From the IMG/VR virus record IMGVR_UViG_3300047444_000028, positions 1 to 23,944 of that record: a DNA stretch of 23,944 bases; one strand, written 5' to 3'. Positions 2 through 23,944 of the stretch are shown piece by piece. Under the pieces are notes generated by a model. It worked only from the letters and a program-made list of their open reading frames with translations, was not told the DNA's origin and did no database searches. The first letter of the stretch is position 1. Every line of letters starts with the position of its first letter. Source of the DNA: a virus. The position numbers and the translations under genes were made by a program.

Positions 2-631
2 ATGGGGGCTCTTGAAGATATCTTTGCACAATACGGTGCGGAAGTACCGCCTACCCTGAGTGCTGATATTGAAGAGGCTATGGACGATACCCCTGAAGAG
101 ATTCGTCTTGAGGGAGAGTGGATGCTTTACTCGCTAAAGTATCCACTCTCCCCCCGCATCACTAAGACATGCAGTCGTTGTGGTGAGCCTTTTCAGACCA
201 ATTACAATGGGGTGGGTAACTGCTCTAACCGGTGTGTTATAGAGGAACTAAGAGAGAAGTTCGGTCTTCTGTGGACACCCGGTAACAGGAAGAATAAAGA
301 GAAATGGGAGACTAGAGTCCCTGCCTCTATCATTCCTTATTCTGCTTTGAGGGCTATGAAAAAGCTGGTAGTTCAAGCAGAAGCTGATCTAGGGAAGCCA
401 ATAGAGATTGGGGTTTCTGTCGAGAAGTTTGTTTTGCCGATACCTTCGCGGGTTGGCCAACGTGCTTCGGTTTCTGAGTCAACCTATAAGCTCCCGGATT
501 TGGCTGAACCTGAGAAGGCTTCTGAACCACTACCGGTTCATCCTTCACATAGTCCAGAAGCTTTGGTTCAGGAGGATTCTGTTCCAGAACCTCCTTCGGA
601 AGATCCTTTCGCAGAGCTTTTCTCTCTGTAG
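2..631 (+). CDS. Zinc-binding-type protein of unknown function, convergent with the Wbl gene
   Basis: A 209-residue product whose first ATG lies at the very edge of the window, so the true start may be upstream. Residues 57-78 hold C57-x2-C60-x13-C74-x3-C78, a treble-clef or zinc-ribbon-like cysteine set, preceded by an acidic N-terminus (residues 1-40) and followed by a basic patch around residues 93-105. The last 60 residues are rich in Pro, Glu and Ser and look disordered. This is the only credible plus-strand gene here. Its final 92 codons lie antisense to the C-terminal part of the Wbl gene. Known zinc-ribbon proteins of phages bind nucleic acid or act as small regulators, but no specific family is recognised and no function is assigned. 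That it is coding is supported by its composition and intact cysteine motif. Confidence 0.75.
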   Translation: MGALEDIFAQYGAEVPPTLSADIEEAMDDTPEEIRLEGEWMLYSLKYPLSPRITKTCSRCGEPFQTNYNGVGNCSNRCVIEELREKFGLLWTPGNRKNKEKWETRVPASIIPYSALRAMKKLVVQAEADLGKPIEIGVSVEKFVLPIPSRVGQRASVSESTYKLPDLAEPEKASEPLPVHPSHSPEALVQEDSVPEPPSEDPFAELFSL

Positions 632-833
632 TAGTGGTACCACCAAACATACCTTCTACTTCATTGATAACTGCCCATTCTCTACAGAGGTCCTGAACAG
701 GGCACATAGCACAGATGCCCTTAGCGGCCTTAATAGTTGATTTAGTCAAGTCATCCCCGAACAGCTTAGGGTATGACGTGCAAATGGCTTGTTGAGACCA
801 CACTTTGCGGTGGCTTGACAGGACTGTATACAT
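354..833 (-). CDS. WhiB-like (Wbl) iron-sulfur transcription regulator
   Basis: A 159-residue product. The first 75 residues match the Wbl family: W12, then C18-x22-C41-x2-C44-x5-C50, the four ligands of the [4Fe-4S] cluster, followed by the glycine turn GMFGG (61-65) and a basic stretch ending in RKALRK (71-76). Wbl proteins bind region 4 of the primary sigma factor and adjust promoter choice; phage members such as TM4 WhiB are known to interfere with host division and superinfection. Here the usual Trp of the G-[VI]-W-G-G turn is Phe. The remaining 84 residues are a Pro/Gln/Lys-rich tail of unknown role encoded opposite the plus-strand zinc-protein gene. The ATG at 833 follows a weak purine-rich ribosome site and a good promoter at 866-894. 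The family call is firm; the length of the real C-terminus is less sure because of the overlap. Confidence 0.88.
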   Translation of the reverse strand: MYTVLSSHRKVWSQQAICTSYPKLFGDDLTKSTIKAAKGICAMCPVQDLCREWAVINEVEGMFGGTTTTERKALRKDLPKEVLEQNPPEPKLLDYVKDEPVVVQKPSQVQPNPGAYRLTQKPKHVGQPAKVSAKQTSRQKPQSLLASLDQLLLELPAFS

Positions 834-865
834 GATTATGTTCTCTTTCCCCAGCGGATAAGATC

Positions 866-894
866 ATCTTAACATCGTGTATTTAAGTGGTCAA
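866..894 (-). promoter_or_regulatory. Sigma-70-like promoter for the Wbl gene
   Basis: On the minus strand a -35 box TTGACC (889-894) and a -10 box TAAGAT (866-871) are separated by exactly 17 bases. The -10 box lies about 33 bases before the ATG of the Wbl gene, leaving a short leader. The -10 box overlaps the small palindrome AAGATGATCTT, which could be an operator. The site is downstream of the late-operon terminators, so the Wbl gene is likely a separate transcription unit. Called from sequence alone. Confidence 0.6.
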
Positions 895-1358: not shown

Positions 1359-2747
1359 TTAAGCTCCCATGAGACGGTTGGGTCGGAGATAACCGAGTAG
1401 AGCTGTTTTACTGAGGTTAACAATAGCTGAAGCTCCGTTAGGGCCGGCGGCCGTAGCATTGTTAGAAAGAGTCTTAACAGTACCGTCACCATTATCTCCG
1501 AGTATAATTCCTACATGTGATCCCGGAGTATAGCCTCCTTTAGCCCAAATGGCTACATCACCCATCTGAGGCCTCTGGCTCCGGTCTATCTGTGTATAAG
1601 CACGAGGGTCGTGATTATTCCAGATTTCATCTGCGGTACCTACCATTGGTGCACTACCGCCCACAAACCCGGTAGTGTAGAAATCGTAAAGGTCAACGCA
1701 TTGTGCGCCATACCAATGGTCATAATCAAGATACTTGTTGGTATTCTGACTAATCCAGTTGAGCGATCCATTAGCTGCCATTGTAGGGGCGGCGACTTTA
1801 CCCTGTGGCTGTTCCATAGTAAGGTAGTCCACAAGCTTTTGAGCATTAGCGTACTGAGCTTGGTAGTTAGAGCCGTCTGAAAAGGCGCTTTTCTCTACTG
1901 CCTGTGCGGCCTGCCAAGGGGTCATACCAGTATGGTCAGTACCGGCTAGAGTATCGTAGAACTTACTGATTTCGTAGTTAGGGTCCATAACCTGCTGGGC
2001 ACTACCCCAGCCCTGAGAAGGCCTCATCTGAAAGAGTCCTAGAGAGTCCCTGTCCCCACCATTAAGGTTATGAAGAGACGATTCAGTAAGACCAGCCATA
2101 ACGGCTGTTTCGATATCCTGTCGGGACATACCCCGCTGAAGACCGTTCTGGATAATCTGCCGGGCGTTATTGATCTGATCCCCGTTAAAGCCGGGAACAT
2201 TGACCTGATTACCGGCCAGTGCAAGGTTAGAGGGATTACCTCCGCTATTGCTTATCTGCTGAGCCTGCTGAGCCTGTTGCTGGGCCAACTGTGCCTGATG
2301 CTGTTGGGCCATAGTAGCGGTGTCGTGATTAGCTTCCTGACCAATAGCGTCAATATCTGACGTATCAATGTTAGGAGGGGGCGTATTAGGAACACCCCCT
2401 ACTGCCTCAGAAGGCTTAGGCGTCTGGTTAGCGGTATGGGCGGCGTTAGTATCCGCACTGCCTCCCGCACTAGCACCCTGCATAGCGGTCTGGTTAGGTA
2501 GCTGTCCTGCCGCTTGTGCAGTATTAGCTACCGGAGTAGCAGTACCAGCCGCAGGTGCACCCATATTCATATTAGGGACATGCTCCACAGAGGGGGCCGG
2601 ATTAGTCTCAAAAGGCTGTGCGCCATAAGACGTAGTAGCGTTATCAACATGCTGGCTAAGGCTATCAAGATGCCTCTGCATAGCAGGGTGAAGGTCACCG
2701 TATCCCGCACTACCTGTGGAGGTATCTTCTCCGTACTGAGTAGTCAT
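1359..2747 (-). CDS. Virion-associated lysin with SLT transglycosylase and CHAP domains
   Basis: A 462-residue product. Residues 1-180 are low complexity (Ala, Pro, Asn), ending in a Gln-rich run at 146-166. Residues 190-305 form a lysozyme-like transglycosylase domain: E222 in the helix, then SLGLFQMRPSQGWG (235-248), the usual G-L-F-Q context. Residues 330-455 form a CHAP amidase/peptidase domain with C350 in GAQC and H411 in SHVGIILG. Together these would cut both glycan and peptide bonds of peptidoglycan. The start forms a TAATG overlap with the giant ejection-type gene, and the position at the end of the ejection cluster argues for a virion enzyme that breaches the wall during entry rather than the main endolysin, although a lysis role cannot be ruled out since a holin-like gene follows. 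Confidence 0.85.
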   Translation of the reverse strand: MTTQYGEDTSTGSAGYGDLHPAMQRHLDSLSQHVDNATTSYGAQPFETNPAPSVEHVPNMNMGAPAAGTATPVANTAQAAGQLPNQTAMQGASAGGSADTNAAHTANQTPKPSEAVGGVPNTPPPNIDTSDIDAIGQEANHDTATMAQQHQAQLAQQQAQQAQQISNSGGNPSNLALAGNQVNVPGFNGDQINNARQIIQNGLQRGMSRQDIETAVMAGLTESSLHNLNGGDRDSLGLFQMRPSQGWGSAQQVMDPNYEISKFYDTLAGTDHTGMTPWQAAQAVEKSAFSDGSNYQAQYANAQKLVDYLTMEQPQGKVAAPTMAANGSLNWISQNTNKYLDYDHWYGAQCVDLYDFYTTGFVGGSAPMVGTADEIWNNHDPRAYTQIDRSQRPQMGDVAIWAKGGYTPGSHVGIILGDNGDGTVKTLSNNATAAGPNGASAIVNLSKTALLGYLRPNRLMGA

Positions 2748-5700
2748 TAGCGGTTATTCCTTTGGATATCTGAGCGTAGGGCGGACTTAGCGGTCTTAGC
2801 TTCAGCTATACTAGAGCGAAGGTCCGCAGGTGAATTGTAATCTGTGGCATGGAGTCCTGTAAAGAAGTTGAATACATCGGCAGGGATACCAGTTCCCGGT
2901 ACAGGCATTGAGTTGCCCTTATCGGTACGGTTCTGAGTCGGGTTGTATAGCTCTTTACCCGTGCCTTTGGAAATCATATCCAGCTGGGGTGGAAGAACGT
3001 TATCCTGCAAGTACTGTGCGTTATCCTTAATCGGGATACCGTTAGACTGTCCAGTAGCCATTTCAATCGGAATCTTAGCAAATGGACTAGCCATACCAAG
3101 CAGGTTAGCTCCGGGGTTCGGATTCATAAGAGTCTGCATAACGTCGATAGAAGGAGCCATTGGGGAGTAGCCCCACAACTGGCCGTCTTCTGTCTTCATC
3201 TGCGGCCCGATAATGTTCTCGTAGTAGTACTGAGGGAACAACTGGTTAATCGGAAACGGCTTACCGACAGACATAGGCTCTACACCGTTTGCCTTAGCCT
3301 GCGCATAGAGAAGCTTATTCGGGGCCATGTAGACACCGGGCTTCTCCACCATACCCTCAATGATATTGGGGATCATCCCACGGAGCCACGTGTAGTAGAG
3401 GATAGCCCTACGTGCATAGACAGACTCTTCCCGGCTAAAGTCGGCAGAAGTAGGTGCCCATTTACGGACCCTCACGAACGCCTTATTAAAGGCATCCTCA
3501 ATAGAGGCGTGATCACCGTGAATAAGGGTATCCATAGCCAATGCGCCGCGAGTCAGGTTATCACGAAGAGCGGAGTACTTGTTGAAGTTAAAGAGTTTGT
3601 TATCGAGGATAGCGTCAGTAGCCTTCAGGGTGGCATTAGCGAACTTACCTCCTGCACCCTGATCAAACTCGGACAAGTAGTCCTCGTGCTGACCAGCACC
3701 GTGAGGGGCGATAAAGATTTTATCATCCATCATGCGGCCAATTTCGGTAGCAGTGTAGTACTTGACGTTACCGTTGATACGAATAGGAACCATGTGCTTC
3801 AGTTCCGACTTAGGAATATTCTTACCGTACTGACCCGCCGCTAGAGTAGTAGCCCGTTCAAACTTAGAGCCAAGGCCCTTAGCAAACATCTGCTCATCCC
3901 TGCCGATAGCAGAGAGTACCCGCATGTTGTAGGCATAAGACCGGGGATCAGTAACACCGGCAAGGAAGTTACGGACAGTATCACCCATAACGTTGGATAC
4001 CCAGTGACCGGGCCGTAGCGTCGTCTGAGTAGCCTTCATAACCTGCGTTACCGGGTCAAAGACGTTGTTCACAAACCGGCCCACAAAGGTCTTATCACTG
4101 ACCTTACGGGATTCGTTGATAAGCCTGTGTACAGCCGGTACTTCCCATGCCGCCGCTTTGTCGTAGTAGAGGCTCTTATCCAGAAGATCATAGAAACCGG
4201 GACCTTCAGAGGCGGCTCGGGGAATAGCACCAATACGTGCCATACCGTTAGTCCTCTTACGGCCTATATTCCATGTGATCTTGGAGTGTCCCTCTTTAGG
4301 CTCCACAGAGCCGAACTCTTTTTCAAAGCTACGGGCCATAGCTACCCGGCTATTCAAGTCCATAACAGCGGAGTGCATCTTGGAGATAATGTCTGCGGCC
4401 TGTTCTGCACTGGTAATGTTCATGTGTTGCCAGAACTCGTGCAGGTTATCTTTAGTAGCACTGGCATACCAGCGGGAGTCGATAGCATCGAATACCCCTG
4501 CGTACTTAGGCGTATTGAGAACTTCTTTCAGGAAGTCTTTATCCAGCGTACCTGCCTTGATAGCCTTGATATAGCGGCTATCCGTGTTGAACAGGACGCC
4601 AAGATTCTTCTTGAGTTCCCGGGCACTATCACCCTCTACCGCCATTTTACCGTTAGCCGCAGTAATGATAGCTTTGGTGTCTTCCAGAAGCTGACCGTCC
4701 TTATTGTACTTCATAAGGTAGTCGGTCAGGGACTGGTGCATCATGCTCTGTACCCGCATAAGCGAGTGCTTACCCTGCATTACCGTGTCATAGAAGTTGC
4801 CTGTAGCAAGATAGGGGAACTTAGCGTTAAAGAAGGATTGGATCGGGTGGAGAGAACGCATAACGTCAGTAGCAATTTGACCGGCATATACGTCAATAGG
4901 ACCGTACTGATCACCGGAAGCTTTGAGGGCATTCTCGGCGTCTTTACGGGAATCACCGATAGTGGTCTTGGGATCAGCGGCCTTAGCGGCCTTTTCTTCC
5001 GCAGGAGTAAGTACCTCACCCTTTAGTTGCTTAACCCAGTCGGTGTACTGGTTACGGTCTACTTCGGGAAGAAGTGCTGTAGTATCCTTAGTAACCGTAT
5101 TGAGCCAGTTGAGCGTCTTTTCGTAGCTCCACGGACCGGAAGAATAGCGTGCAAGACGGTTCTTTAGATCAGCCCAGTTACTCTCAGTGAACTTCTCCAA
5201 ATCAGCCTTGTGCATGGCTTGGTTATACAGGTGGCGCTGTTCCAGCATAGTACCAATATGAGGATCACGGATGATCTTGTGGGCAAGTTCATCCATATCC
5301 TTTTCATACTCTTTAGCCCCGCCTTTACCTGCCTTTTGACGGGCGGTAATAGCCTCATCCCTAGTGGCCCCAATGTTCTTCAGATCGTCTTTGGTAGCCT
5401 TTTTACCGTAGGCACTTCCCTCACCCATAAGAACGTCTTTGATCTTACTCTGAGACTGGTCAAGAAGCTGTTCTACGCGCTCCGGGCTAATAGATCCTCC
5501 GGCCTTCTTAATGGCTTCCATGATACCCTTGCGTTCATGGAGAAGCGTCTCCATAGCAGTATCAAATGCCAGAGGGTTAACCATGTCCTTCTTGTCAGAG
5601 CCGATAATGTGACGCATAAGGTCGCCCTTAGTAAGCGTGCTCTTACCGTGAATACCGTCCACAGACTTGGCCGAGATAGCTTCGAGGATATCACCTTTGG

Positions 5701-7498
5701 TAAGGTGGATATAGCCTCCCTCATTAGCCGCCTTGGACATATTCAGAACGGGAATCATACCGACAGCCTGAAGCTGGGAGTCGTGAGCCTTCAAAAGCTT
5801 AGTGACAATACCGAGCTTATCAAAGCGGGAGACTCTGCGGCCCGACTTAGCCAAGAGAGGGTCCATACCCCCTTCAATAGACTTCTTCACTACACCGTTA
5901 GCAACCGTCTCTACGGGCTTTCCGTGGATAGCCTGCAAAGCGTTCTTAAAAGGCAACTGCTGTGAGTGGCTGTCCATAAGCAGTGGGTGCCTAATACCGC
6001 CAGCTTCCTGTGCAGAGGCACCCTTAGTACGGGCTTCCGGTCCCCGGTATCCTTCTTCGTTAATCTCGGGGAACTCAGCGCCTGCCTGATAGTGCTTGGT
6101 CTGGTTAACCATATCAGTAACAGTCTTCTGCTGGAATCCGGGCTGAAGATTAAGGGGAGTAGAGGCACCCCGGTCATTAAGCTTACCCGCCGCCGCGGCC
6201 TTTTCCTTATTGACTACCTCAGGGTGCAGTACAATAGGCTCATTGAGGGAAGCGGTTCTCTTATCAGCCTCAGCCATACGAGTAGCCTGCCGGTCTTCGG
6301 GAGACATTGCTTCCCAGCTTTTATTAGCCAGAGTATTAGCGGCGGCAGAGTTAACAATATCTGCCTGCTTAGCTACAGTCTCTTTAGGAGCCTTGGGAGG
6401 GTCTTCTACCACAGTAGGGGCTTTGACCGTATCTGGTGCGGCCATAGTTGCTACCGGCTCTTTAGCCAGCGCATCCTTATTAGCAACACCTTCAAGGTGA
6501 GCCTGTAGCAGAGCCTCAGGATCAACGGTAAGGGGCTGAAGAAACGCCTTCTTTTCGGCAGGGCTAATGAAGTTCTTAATACCGTTGAGCATCTTAGAGG
6601 CATCACTGGTTGCCCAGTTAGTCTTCATCTCATTGCCGAGTGCGCTTAGTACAGCCTGAGTAGGACCCTGCTCTTGTGCCTTCAGGATATTGGCAATTTC
6701 GGGTATCTTGTGGTAATCATCTACTGCCGCCTGCTTAGCAGACTCATGGTCCAGAGGGGCTGTAGGGGCCGCAGGAGGCTCCGCAGGAGTGGTTACGCCG
6801 TCCGTACCCACCTGCCAGTCCGCAGGCTTGGCGGCCCCGTCAGCGCCCCCCAGTGCCTCAGCACCCAGCGGTTCGGGCACCGATTCGGCCACCTTCGCCG
6901 CACCCTCAGCTACTTTAGCCGCACCTGCCTTACCGGCATCCTTCAATGCGGCCATAGCTATACCGGGTGCTTTAAGTACGGTCTTACCTACACCTGTACC
7001 GGGGATAAGGTTAATAGGATCGAGGATCATATCACCGCCAATACCGGCGATGTTGGTCATATCCTTACCAACCTGAGTACCTTCTAGGTTAGTACCCTTG
7101 ATATTGTGCTGGGCAATATCAATGAAATCCTTGGCATAGGCCGGGTTATGGTTGATACCTGCGTCAATACCCTGCTGGACACCCTTGGTCAGATCATTGA
7201 TATCAAAAGGTGCCCCGCCCTTATCCTGACGGGTAAGAGAGTTATCAATCGTGTTGGTCAGCATATAGAACGGAGTCTCTATGAAGTCAACAATATTCTG
7301 TAGGGCACTGCCCGGATTAGAAGGACCGCTCCCGTTCAAGTCAGCCATAGTAGGACCGCCTGTGCTTCCCACAGGAGCGGCCTTCAAGGCGCTAAGCATT
7401 GCTGGAACGTCTAGCTTAGCGCCCTGAATAGCGGCGGCGTCGGCATTACTAAGTACGGGCGAGTTCCCGGGACCATATTCAGGAACGGGAGCGGTCAT
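2747..7498 (-). CDS. Giant internal virion / DNA-ejection-type protein
   Basis: A 1583-residue product, the largest in the window. The N-terminal 70 residues are Gly/Pro/Ser-rich; residues 145-170 contain GGDMILDPINLIPG, a motif style seen in large phage internal proteins; 190-260 is Ala/Pro/Glu-rich; most of the remainder is predicted helical with scattered charged residues, and a region near 1135-1200 holds aromatic and Gly-rich turns (LRPGHWVSNVMGDTVRNFL). No enzymatic motif is convincing. In podoviruses such as T7 the proteins of this size and position (gp15, gp16) leave the capsid at infection to form the channel across the envelope. Here the hydrolase activity seems split off into the next gene. 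The assignment rests on size, position and composition, not on a recognised family. The ATG follows a weak GGTGG site. Confidence 0.7.
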   Translation of the reverse strand: MTAPVPEYGPGNSPVLSNADAAAIQGAKLDVPAMLSALKAAPVGSTGGPTMADLNGSGPSNPGSALQNIVDFIETPFYMLTNTIDNSLTRQDKGGAPFDINDLTKGVQQGIDAGINHNPAYAKDFIDIAQHNIKGTNLEGTQVGKDMTNIAGIGGDMILDPINLIPGTGVGKTVLKAPGIAMAALKDAGKAGAAKVAEGAAKVAESVPEPLGAEALGGADGAAKPADWQVGTDGVTTPAEPPAAPTAPLDHESAKQAAVDDYHKIPEIANILKAQEQGPTQAVLSALGNEMKTNWATSDASKMLNGIKNFISPAEKKAFLQPLTVDPEALLQAHLEGVANKDALAKEPVATMAAPDTVKAPTVVEDPPKAPKETVAKQADIVNSAAANTLANKSWEAMSPEDRQATRMAEADKRTASLNEPIVLHPEVVNKEKAAAAGKLNDRGASTPLNLQPGFQQKTVTDMVNQTKHYQAGAEFPEINEEGYRGPEARTKGASAQEAGGIRHPLLMDSHSQQLPFKNALQAIHGKPVETVANGVVKKSIEGGMDPLLAKSGRRVSRFDKLGIVTKLLKAHDSQLQAVGMIPVLNMSKAANEGGYIHLTKGDILEAISAKSVDGIHGKSTLTKGDLMRHIIGSDKKDMVNPLAFDTAMETLLHERKGIMEAIKKAGGSISPERVEQLLDQSQSKIKDVLMGEGSAYGKKATKDDLKNIGATRDEAITARQKAGKGGAKEYEKDMDELAHKIIRDPHIGTMLEQRHLYNQAMHKADLEKFTESNWADLKNRLARYSSGPWSYEKTLNWLNTVTKDTTALLPEVDRNQYTDWVKQLKGEVLTPAEEKAAKAADPKTTIGDSRKDAENALKASGDQYGPIDVYAGQIATDVMRSLHPIQSFFNAKFPYLATGNFYDTVMQGKHSLMRVQSMMHQSLTDYLMKYNKDGQLLEDTKAIITAANGKMAVEGDSARELKKNLGVLFNTDSRYIKAIKAGTLDKDFLKEVLNTPKYAGVFDAIDSRWYASATKDNLHEFWQHMNITSAEQAADIISKMHSAVMDLNSRVAMARSFEKEFGSVEPKEGHSKITWNIGRKRTNGMARIGAIPRAASEGPGFYDLLDKSLYYDKAAAWEVPAVHRLINESRKVSDKTFVGRFVNNVFDPVTQVMKATQTTLRPGHWVSNVMGDTVRNFLAGVTDPRSYAYNMRVLSAIGRDEQMFAKGLGSKFERATTLAAGQYGKNIPKSELKHMVPIRINGNVKYYTATEIGRMMDDKIFIAPHGAGQHEDYLSEFDQGAGGKFANATLKATDAILDNKLFNFNKYSALRDNLTRGALAMDTLIHGDHASIEDAFNKAFVRVRKWAPTSADFSREESVYARRAILYYTWLRGMIPNIIEGMVEKPGVYMAPNKLLYAQAKANGVEPMSVGKPFPINQLFPQYYYENIIGPQMKTEDGQLWGYSPMAPSIDVMQTLMNPNPGANLLGMASPFAKIPIEMATGQSNGIPIKDNAQYLQDNVLPPQLDMISKGTGKELYNPTQNRTDKGNSMPVPGTGIPADVFNFFTGLHATDYNSPADLRSSIAEAKTAKSALRSDIQRNNR

Positions 7499-13652: not shown

Positions 13653-14729
13653 TTAGGGGATACGGATACGCTCTCCCGGGAAAATCTTGTTAGGATCAGC
13701 GATACCGTTGTATCGCGCGAGAGTCTGGTAGTCCGTACCGTATTTAGAGGCAATACCCGAAAGGGAATCACCGGACTGTACGATATAAACAGTACCAGAG
13801 GGTACCCCTTGCGCAGAAGGAAGATTGAGAACCCACCCCACCTTAATAAAGTTGGGGTTAGTAATCCACCTATTTACTCCGAGAATAGCCTGTACCGACG
13901 TATGGAACTGTGCGGCAATCTTGCTAAGCGTATCGTTAGGTTCTACGATGCACTGAGTAGGGTGGCTAGGAGCAGGAGCAGGCTTAGGAGCCGGAGCAGG
14001 TGCCGGATGAGGGGCAGGAGCAGGAGCAGGTGTAGGAGCAGGAGACGGTGCACCCGCATACTTGTACCACGTTGCCTTATCCTCAAAGAACAGGGATACG
14101 TCAAATGGACCCTCATTACCGAAAAATGTAGTAGAAGAGTACTGGTGACCCGCTACTACCGGCCATGCCTTCCACTCTGATACCTGACCGTTTTCCCAAG
14201 CTACCGGATAAGAGAAGCTTCCGAGAATCTTACGGTTATCGTCCCATCCCTGTTCAGGAGTAGTGTAGTCATACTGGGAACCCCACAGGGAGGATTTGGT
14301 AGCAACCTTATCCCAGTTGTACGCATTGACTTCGCCTTCCCCGACATAGGTCAGGGGATAAGCCCGCTTAGCACCAACGTATTCGTTCCACTGATAAACC
14401 CACTCCACCTTATCAGTACCGGGAGGGTGTTCCTCACTGTCCATAAAGGTGTTGATAGCCCGCTCGTGAAGACGTGGGTGAGTGTTGATTTCACTCAGGA
14501 AGAACTGTGCTTCTTCGGCGGGAGTATGTACCGTCCGATTCCGAATGTGATAAAGACCGATAACAAGGTTCCGGGGATCATCCAGAGCTTCATTGAACTG
14601 TTCCTTCCAGATAGGGTTAGCGCCTTCGCAACCAAAGGTCACGCCGATAATGACACCATCCAGATTAGGGATAGTGGTGGTGGGCTTTCCCTCCTGATAG
14701 CGGGAAACGTCTACTACGTGCAGTACCAT
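13653..14729 (-). CDS. Endolysin: GH25 muramidase with two LysM domains
   Basis: The start is set at the ATG at 14729 because AGGAGA (14735-14740) lies five bases before it; the frame runs back to 14792 but those extra 21 residues read through the preceding gene. The 358-residue product has a GH25 (1,4-beta-N-acetylmuramidase) domain at about 1-222: D7 in DVSRYQ, GLYHIRN (58-64), the D97-x-E99 pair in FMDSEE, and GHQYSS (194-199). Then comes a 30-residue Ala-Pro linker (227-256) and two LysM peptidoglycan-binding domains (about 259-303 and 313-357). It lacks a signal peptide, so it needs a holin for export. Its place between a LamG-like gene and the adaptor block, far from the putative holin at the operon's end, is unusual. 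Confidence 0.92.
   Translation of the reverse strand: MVLHVVDVSRYQEGKPTTTIPNLDGVIIGVTFGCEGANPIWKEQFNEALDDPRNLVIGLYHIRNRTVHTPAEEAQFFLSEINTHPRLHERAINTFMDSEEHPPGTDKVEWVYQWNEYVGAKRAYPLTYVGEGEVNAYNWDKVATKSSLWGSQYDYTTPEQGWDDNRKILGSFSYPVAWENGQVSEWKAWPVVAGHQYSSTTFFGNEGPFDVSLFFEDKATWYKYAGAPSPAPTPAPAPAPHPAPAPAPKPAPAPSHPTQCIVEPNDTLSKIAAQFHTSVQAILGVNRWITNPNFIKVGWVLNLPSAQGVPSGTVYIVQSGDSLSGIASKYGTDYQTLARYNGIADPNKIFPGERIRIP
13974..14046. repeat. Low-complexity Ala-Pro linker repeat inside the endolysin gene
   Basis: The plus strand reads as repeated GGAGCAGGAGCAGG-like units that encode alternating Ala and Pro on the minus strand, joining the GH25 and LysM domains. Repeats like this expand and contract by slippage, so linker length may differ between relatives. 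Confidence 0.75.
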
Positions 14730-14739
14730 TGTTTTCTCC

Positions 14740-15612
14740 TTAGGGCTGTGCTCGGAGCCAGTAAAGCTCTTCGTACTGATTTGCGCTACCAAACGCTATA
14801 CGCTTGGCATCCTGAACACTAAGGCCAGAAGTACCGGCTACAGTGTTCCAGTAAATCTCTTCCATATCTTCTGTAGAGAGATTAGTCTTTGAGGTCTTAG
14901 CTTGGAGGAACTTGTAGTACAGATCAGCCCTAGACCCCGAAGTAGGTCCTAGCGTCTTCTGGTAGTACTCAACCTGCGTATTAGCTAGGCTAAGTCCTCC
15001 GTCCACAGGGGCGGTGACGCTGACAGTATCAATGTTCCAGACACCTTGGTTACCGACTTCCTGAGAACCAAGGTAAGCGGTATCAATCTGAGGGGCTGAG
15101 AACCAGTCGGCAGGCTTATTGGCAGAGGACAGGTAAGTAGTCCCATTGAGTTTGAGGGTAGGAGTACCGTTGATATTCCATGTGAACTCTACATAGACCC
15201 AAGTATTAAGAGCCAGTGTAAAAGCGGCACCGATAAACCAGTAGTTAGAGCCCCCAGCGGCCTTAACTACCCGGAGCCATACGTTGTTACCGCCTACGGC
15301 ATTAGCGCGGTATACGTCAGCGAGTCGTTGTGTTCCGTAAAAGAGACGGGCAAAAGGGACGTTGGAGCCGTTAGCGCCCTCGGTAGTGACCCTCCACCAT
15401 CCCTTGATGGTAATAGCTGGGGCAGGGCCGACACTTCTCTTGAAGTTGGCTATGTCAACAGTAGCCGCAGGTACGCTTCCCTGTGCTCCAAAAGAACCAT
15501 CATGGGCCGCACCCGCGATAATAGTAGCAGTACCCGCACCGGCAGTAACAGCTGTCCAGCCTTGTGCTGTACCATCGTCAAAGGTAGTGCTTATATCCTG
15601 TGGGAAAGACAT
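14740..15612 (-). CDS. LamG/concanavalin-like beta-sandwich structural protein
   Basis: A 290-residue product. Residues 1-205 have the pattern of a lectin-like jelly roll: FDDGTAQGWTA (11-21) opening, alternate strands with WWRVTTEGANG, then TWVYVEFTWNINGTPTLKLNG (about 137-157), and WNIDTVSV closing strand. Residues 215-290 form a second, helical region with YYQKTLG and two similar short helices. Such domains in phages usually bind surface glycans and occur in fibres, spikes or decorations. The gene sits directly upstream of the endolysin, with the stop overlapping the endolysin ribosome site. Receptor binding is inferred, not shown. Confidence 0.65.
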   Translation of the reverse strand: MSFPQDISTTFDDGTAQGWTAVTAGAGTATIIAGAAHDGSFGAQGSVPAATVDIANFKRSVGPAPAITIKGWWRVTTEGANGSNVPFARLFYGTQRLADVYRANAVGGNNVWLRVVKAAGGSNYWFIGAAFTLALNTWVYVEFTWNINGTPTLKLNGTTYLSSANKPADWFSAPQIDTAYLGSQEVGNQGVWNIDTVSVTAPVDGGLSLANTQVEYYQKTLGPTSGSRADLYYKFLQAKTSKTNLSTEDMEEIYWNTVAGTSGLSVQDAKRIAFGSANQYEELYWLRAQP

Positions 15613-21815: not shown

Positions 21816-22099
21816 TACCGGATACTTTCGTCGTCAACGGTATTAGGGCCGCCTTCACCCGGGAACACATAGTCCTCGGACGGACGCTCTACTGCGGGAG
21901 CATAGAAGTGATCACCCTCGTAAGGAGCGGGTGGATTAGTGTGAGTCTCAATAAGGTTCACAGCACCCTGCGTAATGACCTTATCAGCAAACAGACCCCA
22001 AAGATCAGGTTCGCGGTTCTCATTGTGCGCGTGCATAAGTTCGGCTTCAATTGCGGCAGACTCTTCCATGTAAGGACCACCATAGATTACTTCAGGCAT
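21815..22099 (-). CDS. Small acidic protein of unknown function
   Basis: A 94-residue product from the ATG at 22099, which forms TAATG with the terminase stop and follows GGAG at five bases; a GTG two codons earlier is less likely. The protein is acidic and Glu/Pro-rich, with a helix around residues 10-26 (ESAAIEAELMHAHNE) and no other recognisable motif. Its tight coupling to terminase suggests production in step with packaging proteins. No family is recognised. Confidence 0.65.
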   Translation of the reverse strand: MPEVIYGGPYMEESAAIEAELMHAHNENREPDLWGLFADKVITQGAVNLIETHTNPPAPYEGDHFYAPAVERPSEDYVFPGEGGPNTVDDESIR

Positions 22100-23697
22100 T
22101 ACCACTCCATTTCCCAGCTTGAATATTCGTCGTGCAGTATATAGCCCGAATCACCTTCAAGTGATCCGAAATCCCTATATTCCTTCTCGCCACTGTTGGG
22201 CTGATCAGTAAAGGGAAAAGGAATATCTGCTACTGCACCTAATCTATCAGTGACCTGCTTCGTAGGTACAGAATCATCAAAAGACAGATCAGGCATTGTG
22301 GTAATGAAGTAACGCAAGCAATCACAGAGGTCGTCGTGCTTCTTGTGGGGCTTAGTCTTGGGAGCATTCTTGGATTCCAGCTTCTTGCTGGCCCATGTCT
22401 CCCAGTGGTACTTAAGCATTTCATCTTCAAGCAGGACACAGTTTTCTACATAATGCCATGTAGGTTGTTTCGTCAGGGGATTAATCTGAAGGTATTCATC
22501 AAACTTTCGCAATCCTGTATCAACTGAATCAGGTCCTGTTGGTACGCCTTCGACAGCGAGATAGATTCCGTGCTTAGCGTACTCGCCGATATCTGATATT
22601 CCAGTATTGGCCCTAGTCTGTCTAAGTGCAGGATCGCCCGTTCTAAGGTAGACCTTAGCTCTTTGACCCGTATCCTTGTACTTAAGCGTGGACTCATAGG
22701 CTTTGACTCGCTGGGCCCATCCTTCGATAGTGACATAGCTATCCCTCATTTCAAAGAACGTAATGATAGTTCCATCTGGTTTTACCGCGTGCCATAGCCA
22801 TGCGGTAGGGTGAACCCAGCCAGAGTCAACAGAGGTATAGATACGCATATCGCTGGTGAGTTCAAACTCACTCATGGGTATCCGGTGAATCCGGGGCTGG
22901 AAGTTCTTGAATACCTTTCCACCCAATTGCACAAAGTCACCCTTTTCACGTGCACGCCTGTCGTCTTCACTAAGGGTAGCGAGATAGGCGTCACGAGATT
23001 CCGGGGGAAGATACGGGTTATCCGCCATATCTGCCTGCACAATGAAGAAGCGGTGGTTGGGGTTATCCTTGGCCGGTTCATAGATACGCTCATAGACCCA
23101 CGTCATACCGAACAACGGGGTCATACTCATCCACCATGAACCATTGGTATCAATAAGACGAGCACCACATTCTTCAAAGATATCCTGTGGCGGTTCCTCA
23201 TCGAATGAAACAAAGTGACGGGAGGCAGATGCGAACTTATCCGTCTCCTGTTCGTAACTCATGAACTCAATAAAGCTACCGTTATTCAAATGCAGGGTAT
23301 CAGTCTGCTTATCGTAGCTGTCTTCCCAGTTACCGTTAATCAGGTATTGCTGAGGCATGTACTGCTTAAACAGCGGAATGGTGACAGGCTTGATAATGTT
23401 CTTGAAGTCAACGGTGACGAAACGCCCGCGTACAGGCTCCCGAGGCATGACCCTATAAGGATGCGTCTTAGTCAGCCACCAGACGCATTCCACCACATTT
23501 GCTACAGTCTTACCTGTACGGTTACCTCCAATGAAAAGGCGTCCGTGCTTCTGAGACTGGTGAAACCATTCCTGTTTAGGGTATGGCTTATGGTGAAATA
23601 CGTTAGGCAGGAATGCTGTGTTCTTTAGGGTATTTCCCACAGAAGCAAGTGCATCCTCAAAGGACAATTCTCTTGGGTTACTACGCCGTTGTACCAT
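22099..23697 (-). CDS. Terminase large subunit
   Basis: The packaging motor: ATPase plus headful or cohesive-end nuclease. Counting from a TTG two codons upstream, Walker A is GGNRTGKT (59-66), Walker B is FVSFDE (164-169), and the nuclease domain shows D293 in SVDSGW and the terminal HDD (456-458) in KKHDDLCDC. The start is given at ATG 23697; a TTG at 23703 is the alternative. Neither has a clear ribosome site, and both lie inside the end of the upstream gene, so coupling is likely. The C-terminal 76 residues after HDD are acidic and may dock to the portal. A small terminase subunit was not found in the window, and is probably beyond the right edge. Confidence 0.92.
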   Translation of the reverse strand: MVQRRSNPRELSFEDALASVGNTLKNTAFLPNVFHHKPYPKQEWFHQSQKHGRLFIGGNRTGKTVANVVECVWWLTKTHPYRVMPREPVRGRFVTVDFKNIIKPVTIPLFKQYMPQQYLINGNWEDSYDKQTDTLHLNNGSFIEFMSYEQETDKFASASRHFVSFDEEPPQDIFEECGARLIDTNGSWWMSMTPLFGMTWVYERIYEPAKDNPNHRFFIVQADMADNPYLPPESRDAYLATLSEDDRRAREKGDFVQLGGKVFKNFQPRIHRIPMSEFELTSDMRIYTSVDSGWVHPTAWLWHAVKPDGTIITFFEMRDSYVTIEGWAQRVKAYESTLKYKDTGQRAKVYLRTGDPALRQTRANTGISDIGEYAKHGIYLAVEGVPTGPDSVDTGLRKFDEYLQINPLTKQPTWHYVENCVLLEDEMLKYHWETWASKKLESKNAPKTKPHKKHDDLCDCLRYFITTMPDLSFDDSVPTKQVTDRLGAVADIPFPFTDQPNSGEKEYRDFGSLEGDSGYILHDEYSSWEMEW

Positions 23698-23944
23698 CGA
23701 CAAAATTCGTTTGAGAGCAGATCAGGGAGATAAGGTTGGCTACTGCCGCATTACCTCCGCGTGATCCAGTAATGGTTCCGCTAAAGAGAAGCGGACTGTT
23801 ATTGCCGTCATGGCTATGCGCACCACTAGCGGCCTGATTAACGCCGGGGCCTAGTGTGTGGTGCTGTGCATTAGTGTCACTATCTACGTCAGAGAAAGCA
23901 TGGAACAACCTGTTACTCACAGGGTCCATAGGCATCTGAGCCTG
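23681..23944 (-). CDS. C-terminal part of an unknown protein (5' end beyond the window)
   Basis: The frame is open through the right edge, and the first ATG at 23935 has no ribosome site, so this is probably the end of a longer gene. The visible part holds ASGAHSHDGNNSPLLFSG (about residues 36-53 of the ATG version), a His-containing loop seen in some phage fibre or minor structural proteins, then TITGSRGGNAAVANLISLI. The stop lies 17-23 bases inside the terminase start region. Function not assigned. Confidence 0.5.
   Translation of the reverse strand, partial: QAQMPMDPVSNRLFHAFSDVDSDTNAQHHTLGPGVNQAASGAHSHDGNNSPLLFSGTITGSRGGNAAVANLISLICSQTNFVDGTTA

Follow-up and report, generated by a model that had tools for sequence, protein, structure and literature searches.

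Convergent genes whose transcripts run into one another have been described in bacteria, where the excludon and other convergent 3'-overlapping transcripts overlap mostly through their untranslated regions (PMC7154746, Fig. 3b). Antisense overlap of open reading frames has also been documented in E. coli, on the basis of expression data (PMC9927249), and in viruses, where a survey of annotated overlaps counted 21 of 347 Podoviridae reference genomes with an antisense overlap of more than 50 bases (PMC7017920). A third set of studies concerns the WhiB-like (Wbl) regulators encoded by phages (PMC8612146). The components of the locus analyzed here, a phage Wbl gene that meets a zinc-type protein gene tail to tail, are thus known: the phage Wbl proteins (PMC8612146), the viral antisense overlaps (PMC7017920) and the convergent overlapping transcripts (PMC7154746). 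No description of the zinc-type/Wbl pair itself was found in the literature searched; the main text on phage Wbl regulators mentions neither Jasmine nor antisense (PMC8612146), and that of the Jasmine genome paper does not use the word 'overlap' (PMC5513430).

How does the pair compare with these systems? Like the excludon (PMC7154746), it is convergent, has no terminator between the genes, and is predicted to send one mRNA 3' end into the neighboring gene, with mutual antisense as the result. It differs from the excludon in that its overlap is protein-coding on both strands and resides in a phage, in that regulation is here a prediction, and in that the putative wbl-strand terminator lies within the partner gene, at much the same position in several lineages. 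The pair shares with the viral (PMC7017920) and E. coli (PMC9927249) overlaps two open frames on opposite strands, but unlike those cases it has domains or motifs outside the overlap in both genes, occurs in seven lineages and carries the marks of two-frame constraint. Finally, the Wbl protein has the four cysteines of the other actinophage Wbl regulators (PMC8612146) and a turn that resembles their glycine turn, but its gene is solitary, lies where the lysis and replication blocks meet, converges on a zinc-type gene and encodes a long, predicted disordered tail.

The stretch of DNA analyzed, called the window below, is virus DNA of 23,944 nucleotides, positions 1-23,944 of IMG/VR record IMGVR_UViG_3300047444_000028; this 23.9-kb window is part of a podovirus-like genome. 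A leftward block runs from the terminase through a P22-like portal and a CHAP endolysin to a small gene that is a holin by position, and at the left end of the window the rightward gene 2-631 meets the leftward gene 833-354. IMG/VR contigs of the same type carry, rightward, a DNA polymerase (DNA pol A), a RuvC-like gene and then the zinc-type gene, the first two being named for their resemblance, in position and sequence, to Jasminevirus. The zinc-type gene probably starts at base 2, because GGAG followed by ATG is found upstream in two contigs (L005/L008). The relevant features are as follows, with the lineages named here taken up below:

2-631, + strand: zinc-type protein gene (phrog_32248, 209 aa), last of the rightward replication block; stop codon 629-631
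110-154 (gene bases 109-153), - strand: 17-bp hairpin in the zinc-type gene, no T-run, -29.7 kcal/mol
170-235, + strand: Cys4 motif C57-x2-C60 ... C74-x3-C78, invariant in all relatives including outgroups
343-410, both strands: double-frozen block; Jasminevirus and soil type B are 95-100% identical here and about 60% in the surroundings
354-631, both strands: shared antisense coding stretch, 278 bases, both stop codons included
354-833, - strand: Wbl (WhiB-like) regulator gene, 159 aa (PF02467, 5.1e-13); stop codon 354-356
369-392, - strand: hydrophobic Wbl tail motif LDQLLLEL (LDQLLLGL in relatives, LDAFLLSL in L055)
374-393, both strands: 20-base core CAAGCAGAAGCTGATCTAGG, identical in four close lineages, + QAEADLG, - LDQLLL
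612-800, - strand: predicted Wbl iron-sulfur domain (C18, C41, C44, C50, G61-x3-G65), from the Pfam match
866-894, - strand: wbl promoter-like site TTGACC-17-TAAGAT with TG before the second hexamer
929-972, - strand: strong hairpin between holin and wbl, probable lysis-block terminator, from a hairpin scan
1034-1492, leftward (-): small gene, holin by position
1359-2747, leftward (-): CHAP endolysin
22099-23703, leftward (-): terminase (Terminase_6N)

Several observations concern the leftward block in its own right. The endolysin differs locally from that of L008 at about 1880-2050 (SAQQVMDPNYEISKFYDTLAGTDHT in the window, NPNQIMDPNYEISKFYDTLASTQHN in L008) in viruses that are otherwise nearly identical, which suggests micro-diversity or exchange in the lysin. 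A second cell-wall-related gene lies within the virion block (13653-14792, -); it has a probable GH25-like N-terminus, recognized by eye, then a Pro/Ala linker, and two LysM domains (Pfam 4e-29). Adjoining the lysin is a gene for a 1583-aa protein (2747-7498, -) that has no Pfam match and is possibly an internal or ejected virion protein.

The original prediction placed the overlap of the two genes at 354-631, and this is exact: they share 278 bases on opposite strands, with no internal stop in the + or the - frame, and the cysteines of the zinc motif (Cys57/60/74/78) are found at 170-235 as proposed. The Wbl domain had been placed outside the shared part; the Pfam match at 612-800 enters it by about 20 bases. 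In the codon phase of the pair, + position 1 lies opposite - position 1, + 2 opposite - 3, and + 3 opposite - 2. Given the + codons of the window, the - frame is open in 0.7% of codon permutations and 4% of synonymous shuffles; given the - codons, the + frame is open in 0.8-0.9%. For the five other close sequences, the - frame is open in at most 1.5% by permutation and 0.8-5% by synonymous shuffle, and the + frame, given the - codons, in at most 0.4%. Across all six close sequences the - frame is open in 0.2-1.5% of permutations. The same test is mostly non-significant for the shorter overlaps of the outgroups (L055, p.03-.21; DS1,.08-.12; L064,.03-.42). The overlap of the zinc-type and Wbl frames is not due to chance.

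The same tail-to-tail overlap, in identical codon phase and with 140-338 shared bases, occurs in seven lineages: the window type, Jasminevirus, soil types A and B, L055, a short-overlap soil group, and DS1. The Arthrobacter phages Jasmine, Brad and Casserole (Jasminevirus) share 335-338 bases, with both genes annotated, and Adat, GurgleFerb and Nellie gave similar matches; the two Jasminevirus proteins are about 41% and 33% identical to those of the window. The exact 20-base pattern from the overlap led to soil lineages A and B, in which the two genes share 335 bases. A fully degenerate pattern for the + peptide, covering every synonymous codon, returned the same 12 contigs as the exact 20-mer, and therefore no virus contig searched matches the + peptide pattern with other codons. 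For outgroups, a Wbl-protein profile yielded 80 viral loci, which were scanned together with the DS1 locus using a zinc-protein profile. Overlaps of 227 bases in the deeper soil contig L055, 140 bases in the short-overlap group (L062-L065) and 194 bases in Cellulosimicrobium phage DS1 emerged, all in the codon phase of the window. These outgroup loci again have a gene for a family A DNA polymerase as one neighbor (in L055, L064 and DS1) and cell-wall hydrolase genes as the other. Both frames are open in all distinct close sequences as well as in L055, L064 and DS1, and none of the overlapping sequences has one frame broken with its partner kept, in line with the original prediction; however, L058 has the pair without the overlap, in convergent order with the genes 409 bases apart. 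As judged from these comparisons, the pair is an old, conserved, tail-to-tail arrangement in podoviruses of actinobacteria (Jasminevirus and relatives). Two further observations came from the same loci: the Wbl gene of DS1 (L119, MW590223; 4368-4916, -), which shares 194 bases with the zinc-type gene, is absent from the annotation as deposited, and five viral contigs (L061, L081, L082, L110 and L112) have two Wbl open frames in tandem, adjacent on the same strand.

The two proteins differ in how much can be said of them. The Wbl protein matches PF02467 (Pfam Whib) over residues 12-74 (5.1e-13; 49.8 bits vs a curated cut-off of 23.6) and, by profile, WhiB/WhiB1 in the PDB (8e-9). Its cysteines C18, C41, C44 and C50 are invariant in the seven sequences compared, and its turn, G[V/I]WGG in the family, reads GMFGG in the window, GIWAG in close relatives and GIWGG in L055, L064, DS1 and L058. 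The zinc-type protein belongs to phrog_32248, a family annotated without function. Its homologues are found in 8 Jasminevirus records, DS1 and IMG/VR contigs; a PDB sequence search gave weak matches only (best E 0.047), GTDB genome contigs searched with the zinc-protein alignment held no relatives, and plasmids searched with the DNA and with the Jasmine zinc protein gave no match. AlphaFold models of the two proteins have low confidence (mean pLDDT 45 and 53), lowest in the tails of both (pLDDT 29-50), and both C-terminal tails are low-complexity and predicted to be disordered.

Because the third position of a + codon pairs with the second of a - codon, and vice versa, selection can be separated by frame. 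Strand-wise synonymous rates across relatives, proposed earlier as a check, are indeed lower in both frames inside the overlap for the A-B pair:.188 inside vs.432 outside for the + frame (p 5e-4) and.143 vs.543 for the - frame (p 2e-6), in tests that treat sites as independent and draw on few lineages. The contrast is sharpest in the first third of the overlap between Jasminevirus and B, where synonymous rates are.168 vs.639 for + (p 1e-5) and.063 vs.779 for - (p 2e-10), and no change alters both proteins. Changes that alter both proteins are also the rarest class when two independent pairs are pooled (.045 vs.127, p 3e-4). The window provides the deepest split among the close lineages: conserved + residues use identical codons at 16 of 22 positions in the overlap vs 17 of 45 outside when compared with B (p.01), and at 16 of 20 vs 19 of 45 when compared with Jasminevirus (p.007); in mid-overlap the window cannot be aligned reliably with the others at the DNA level, and counts from that part carry little weight. 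Within Jasminevirus, constraint on the + tail is not detectable (p.78 and 1). Taken along the overlap, both frames are tight in the first third (window about 354-440), which is the end of a predicted helix on the + strand (QAEADLG) and LDQLLL on the - strand. In the middle third both frames are open but almost unconstrained between Jasminevirus and B, and the last third is constrained in both frames in the A-B pair and mainly in the Wbl frame within Jasminevirus. These patterns indicate that there is purifying selection on both frames, strongest in the first third and weak in the middle third, and argue that both proteins have genuine C-terminal tails encoded by the overlap.

The predicted transcription signals suggest a relationship that extends beyond the coding overlap. 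The second hexamer and the spacing of the wbl promoter-like site (TTGnnn-17-TAAGAT) are kept in Jasminevirus and in types A and B, where the sequence upstream of wbl (L010, L034, L031) reads TAAGAT, six bases, ATG; wbl looks leaderless in all three. In the window (830-870), ATC replaces that ATG, and translation of wbl seems to begin about 33 bases farther downstream, after a stretch rich in purines. The hairpin at 929-972 separates wbl from the lysis genes, and wbl seems to form a transcription unit of one gene, with a promoter to itself.

That no terminator lies between the two genes was part of the original prediction and holds, so that the predicted transcripts of the convergent genes overlap; the strong hairpin within the zinc-type gene (110-154) had been missed. 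A wbl-strand hairpin with a T-run lies inside this gene, at bases ~99-146, in five of the seven lineages (Jasminevirus, 108-136; A and B, 99-127; L055, 106-136; DS1, 102-146), and these five hairpins are the best on the wbl strand over the whole non-overlapping part of the gene. Each is followed by a T-run of at least 6 T in 8 bases, and each has p <=.01 against synonymous shuffles. The 17-bp hairpin of the window has no T-run but occupies the position of the relatives' predicted T-tailed wbl-strand terminators, and 0 of 400 synonymous shuffles reach it. No such hairpin was found at bases ~99-146 in L064, of the short-overlap group, and in L058, which has no overlap, a T-tailed hairpin directly follows the wbl stop. 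On the simplest reading, the wbl mRNA appears to end inside the zinc-type gene, which would make this RNA complementary to most of the zinc-type mRNA. In the other direction, no clear, T-tailed + strand terminator for the zinc operon was found in the window before or in wbl, and RNA from this operon may therefore cross wbl. DS1 (L119) has a 21-bp + strand hairpin near the wbl start (4824-4877, -43.7 kcal/mol), a candidate terminator of its rightward operon.

We favor, and hold to be moderately probable, the view that the two genes, at the replication/lysis junction, form a conserved pair that is dual-coding and reciprocally antisense and whose members probably interfere with each other. The coding end of wbl extends into the gene that closes the replication operon, and the 3' end of its mRNA would lie farther in. 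With its own promoter, no intervening terminator and an embedded wbl-strand terminator in five lineages, wbl would yield an mRNA complementary to that of its partner over about 500 bases, and such complementarity, as predicted, is what antisense or collision control would need. To this extent the original prediction, which raised a small two-gene switch through antisense RNA or polymerase collision, is supported in part, and such a switch is possible. Interference could then act through convergent polymerases or through RNase III cleavage of the RNA duplex, such that strong wbl transcription would lower the zinc-type protein, perhaps with the operon mRNA, and vice versa. Mutual interference of this kind would be the most likely consequence, a claim that we regard as roughly evenly balanced. 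Perhaps the pair goes further and is a true reciprocal antisense switch, long held in this phage group, with RNA control and two binding-tail sequences locked in one stretch of DNA. Transcription of wbl, stopped only inside the zinc-type gene, would then silence the end of the replication operon, and read-through from the operon would silence wbl; we put this forward tentatively.

Alternatively, the arrangement could be passive compaction, in which the two tails were extended into each other by stop loss, both were selected, and the antisense RNA has no regulatory effect, the embedded terminator being merely where the wbl transcript happens to end. An overlap that varies from 140 to 338 bases and falls to zero in L058, which retains both genes, would fit this history, as would low-complexity, predicted disordered tails of the kind that extensions would produce, and a weakly constrained middle third. 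However, in five lineages the wbl-strand hairpin is found not just after the wbl stop but within the zinc-type gene, at its bases ~99-146, and passive drift would not obviously hold it in a constant place despite differing overlap lengths. Compaction of this kind is a possible but doubtful account.

The original prediction had offered a second alternative, that one tail is a by-product of constraint on the other gene, with only one C-terminal tail functional. The last third of the overlap within Jasminevirus looks as if only the Wbl frame mattered: among J1-J3, seven changes are + nonsynonymous and - synonymous and none is of the opposite kind, and the Wbl domain itself ends in this third. In the A-B pair, however, both kinds of change are suppressed and double-nonsynonymous changes are rarest, and the C-terminal end of the zinc-type protein stays acidic/hydrophobic in Jasminevirus, A, B, the window, L055 and DS1. 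The freezing of both frames rules this explanation out in the first third, and elsewhere it is excluded only partly; overall we consider it unlikely.

Could the first third instead be frozen by a DNA or RNA signal rather than by dual coding, so that one tail's open frame at 343-410 is incidental? Identity of 95-100% over 70-80 bases between Jasminevirus and B, and a 20-mer that four lineages share unchanged and that occurs once in the window, are what such a signal might look like. The frozen block, however, has no conserved RNA structure (covariation term +1.72, unfavorable), no Rfam family near threshold in a permissive search (one spurious lncRNA match fell far below cut-off) and, in the window, no promoter-like site. 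Moreover, the block has diverged in L055, where the + peptide is KAEKRLG rather than QAEADLG, yet the - strand still reads LDxxLLxL (LDAFLLSL) in unchanged register and keeps its Asp, even though the opposite + codon has switched from Asp to Arg; the - motif thus does not merely shadow the + peptide. Considering also that the rate drops of both frames in A-B extend beyond the block, we find a signal of this sort quite improbable. A role of the 20-mer as an att site or repeat was rejected, the sequence being single-copy in the window with no tRNA.

The weakest proposal, a very remote prospect, is that LDQLLL[EG]L (QLxLxL) tethers a sigma-binding Wbl to replication by binding the host sliding clamp, in the manner of T4 gp33: QLLL[EG]L stands at the disordered C-terminus in four close lineages, resembles the clamp motif QL[SP]LPL of Hda (PMC3836487) and was seen in no other likely gene of the scanned sequences (shadow frames only), and T4 gp55 is built in a comparable way, with a core, a divergent linker and a short hydrophobic/acidic end (PMC2988020), but the protein-level match is short, and the idea ranks low because the motif reads AFLLSL, without Gln, in L055 and is absent from L064, DS1 and L058. 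The likeness to T4 gp33/gp55, with their polymerase-binding core, divergent linker and short hydrophobic end (PMC2988020), is one of resemblance only; there is no sequence relation, the clamp-like motif is lost in the outgroups, and the Wbl protein is not a member of that group.

To return to the conserved, reciprocally antisense pair: long antisense coding overlaps are often suspected of being annotation errors. Since both genes here have domains or motifs outside the overlap, with selection in two frames and seven lineages that include cultured phages, the zinc-type/Wbl pair provides a clean, testable case. At the boundary between replication and lysis, where we infer that the pair has its role, a single stretch of DNA would carry two proteins and perhaps a transcriptional switch as well. 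Phage Jasmine and its Arthrobacter host exist, so the pair is open to direct experiment.
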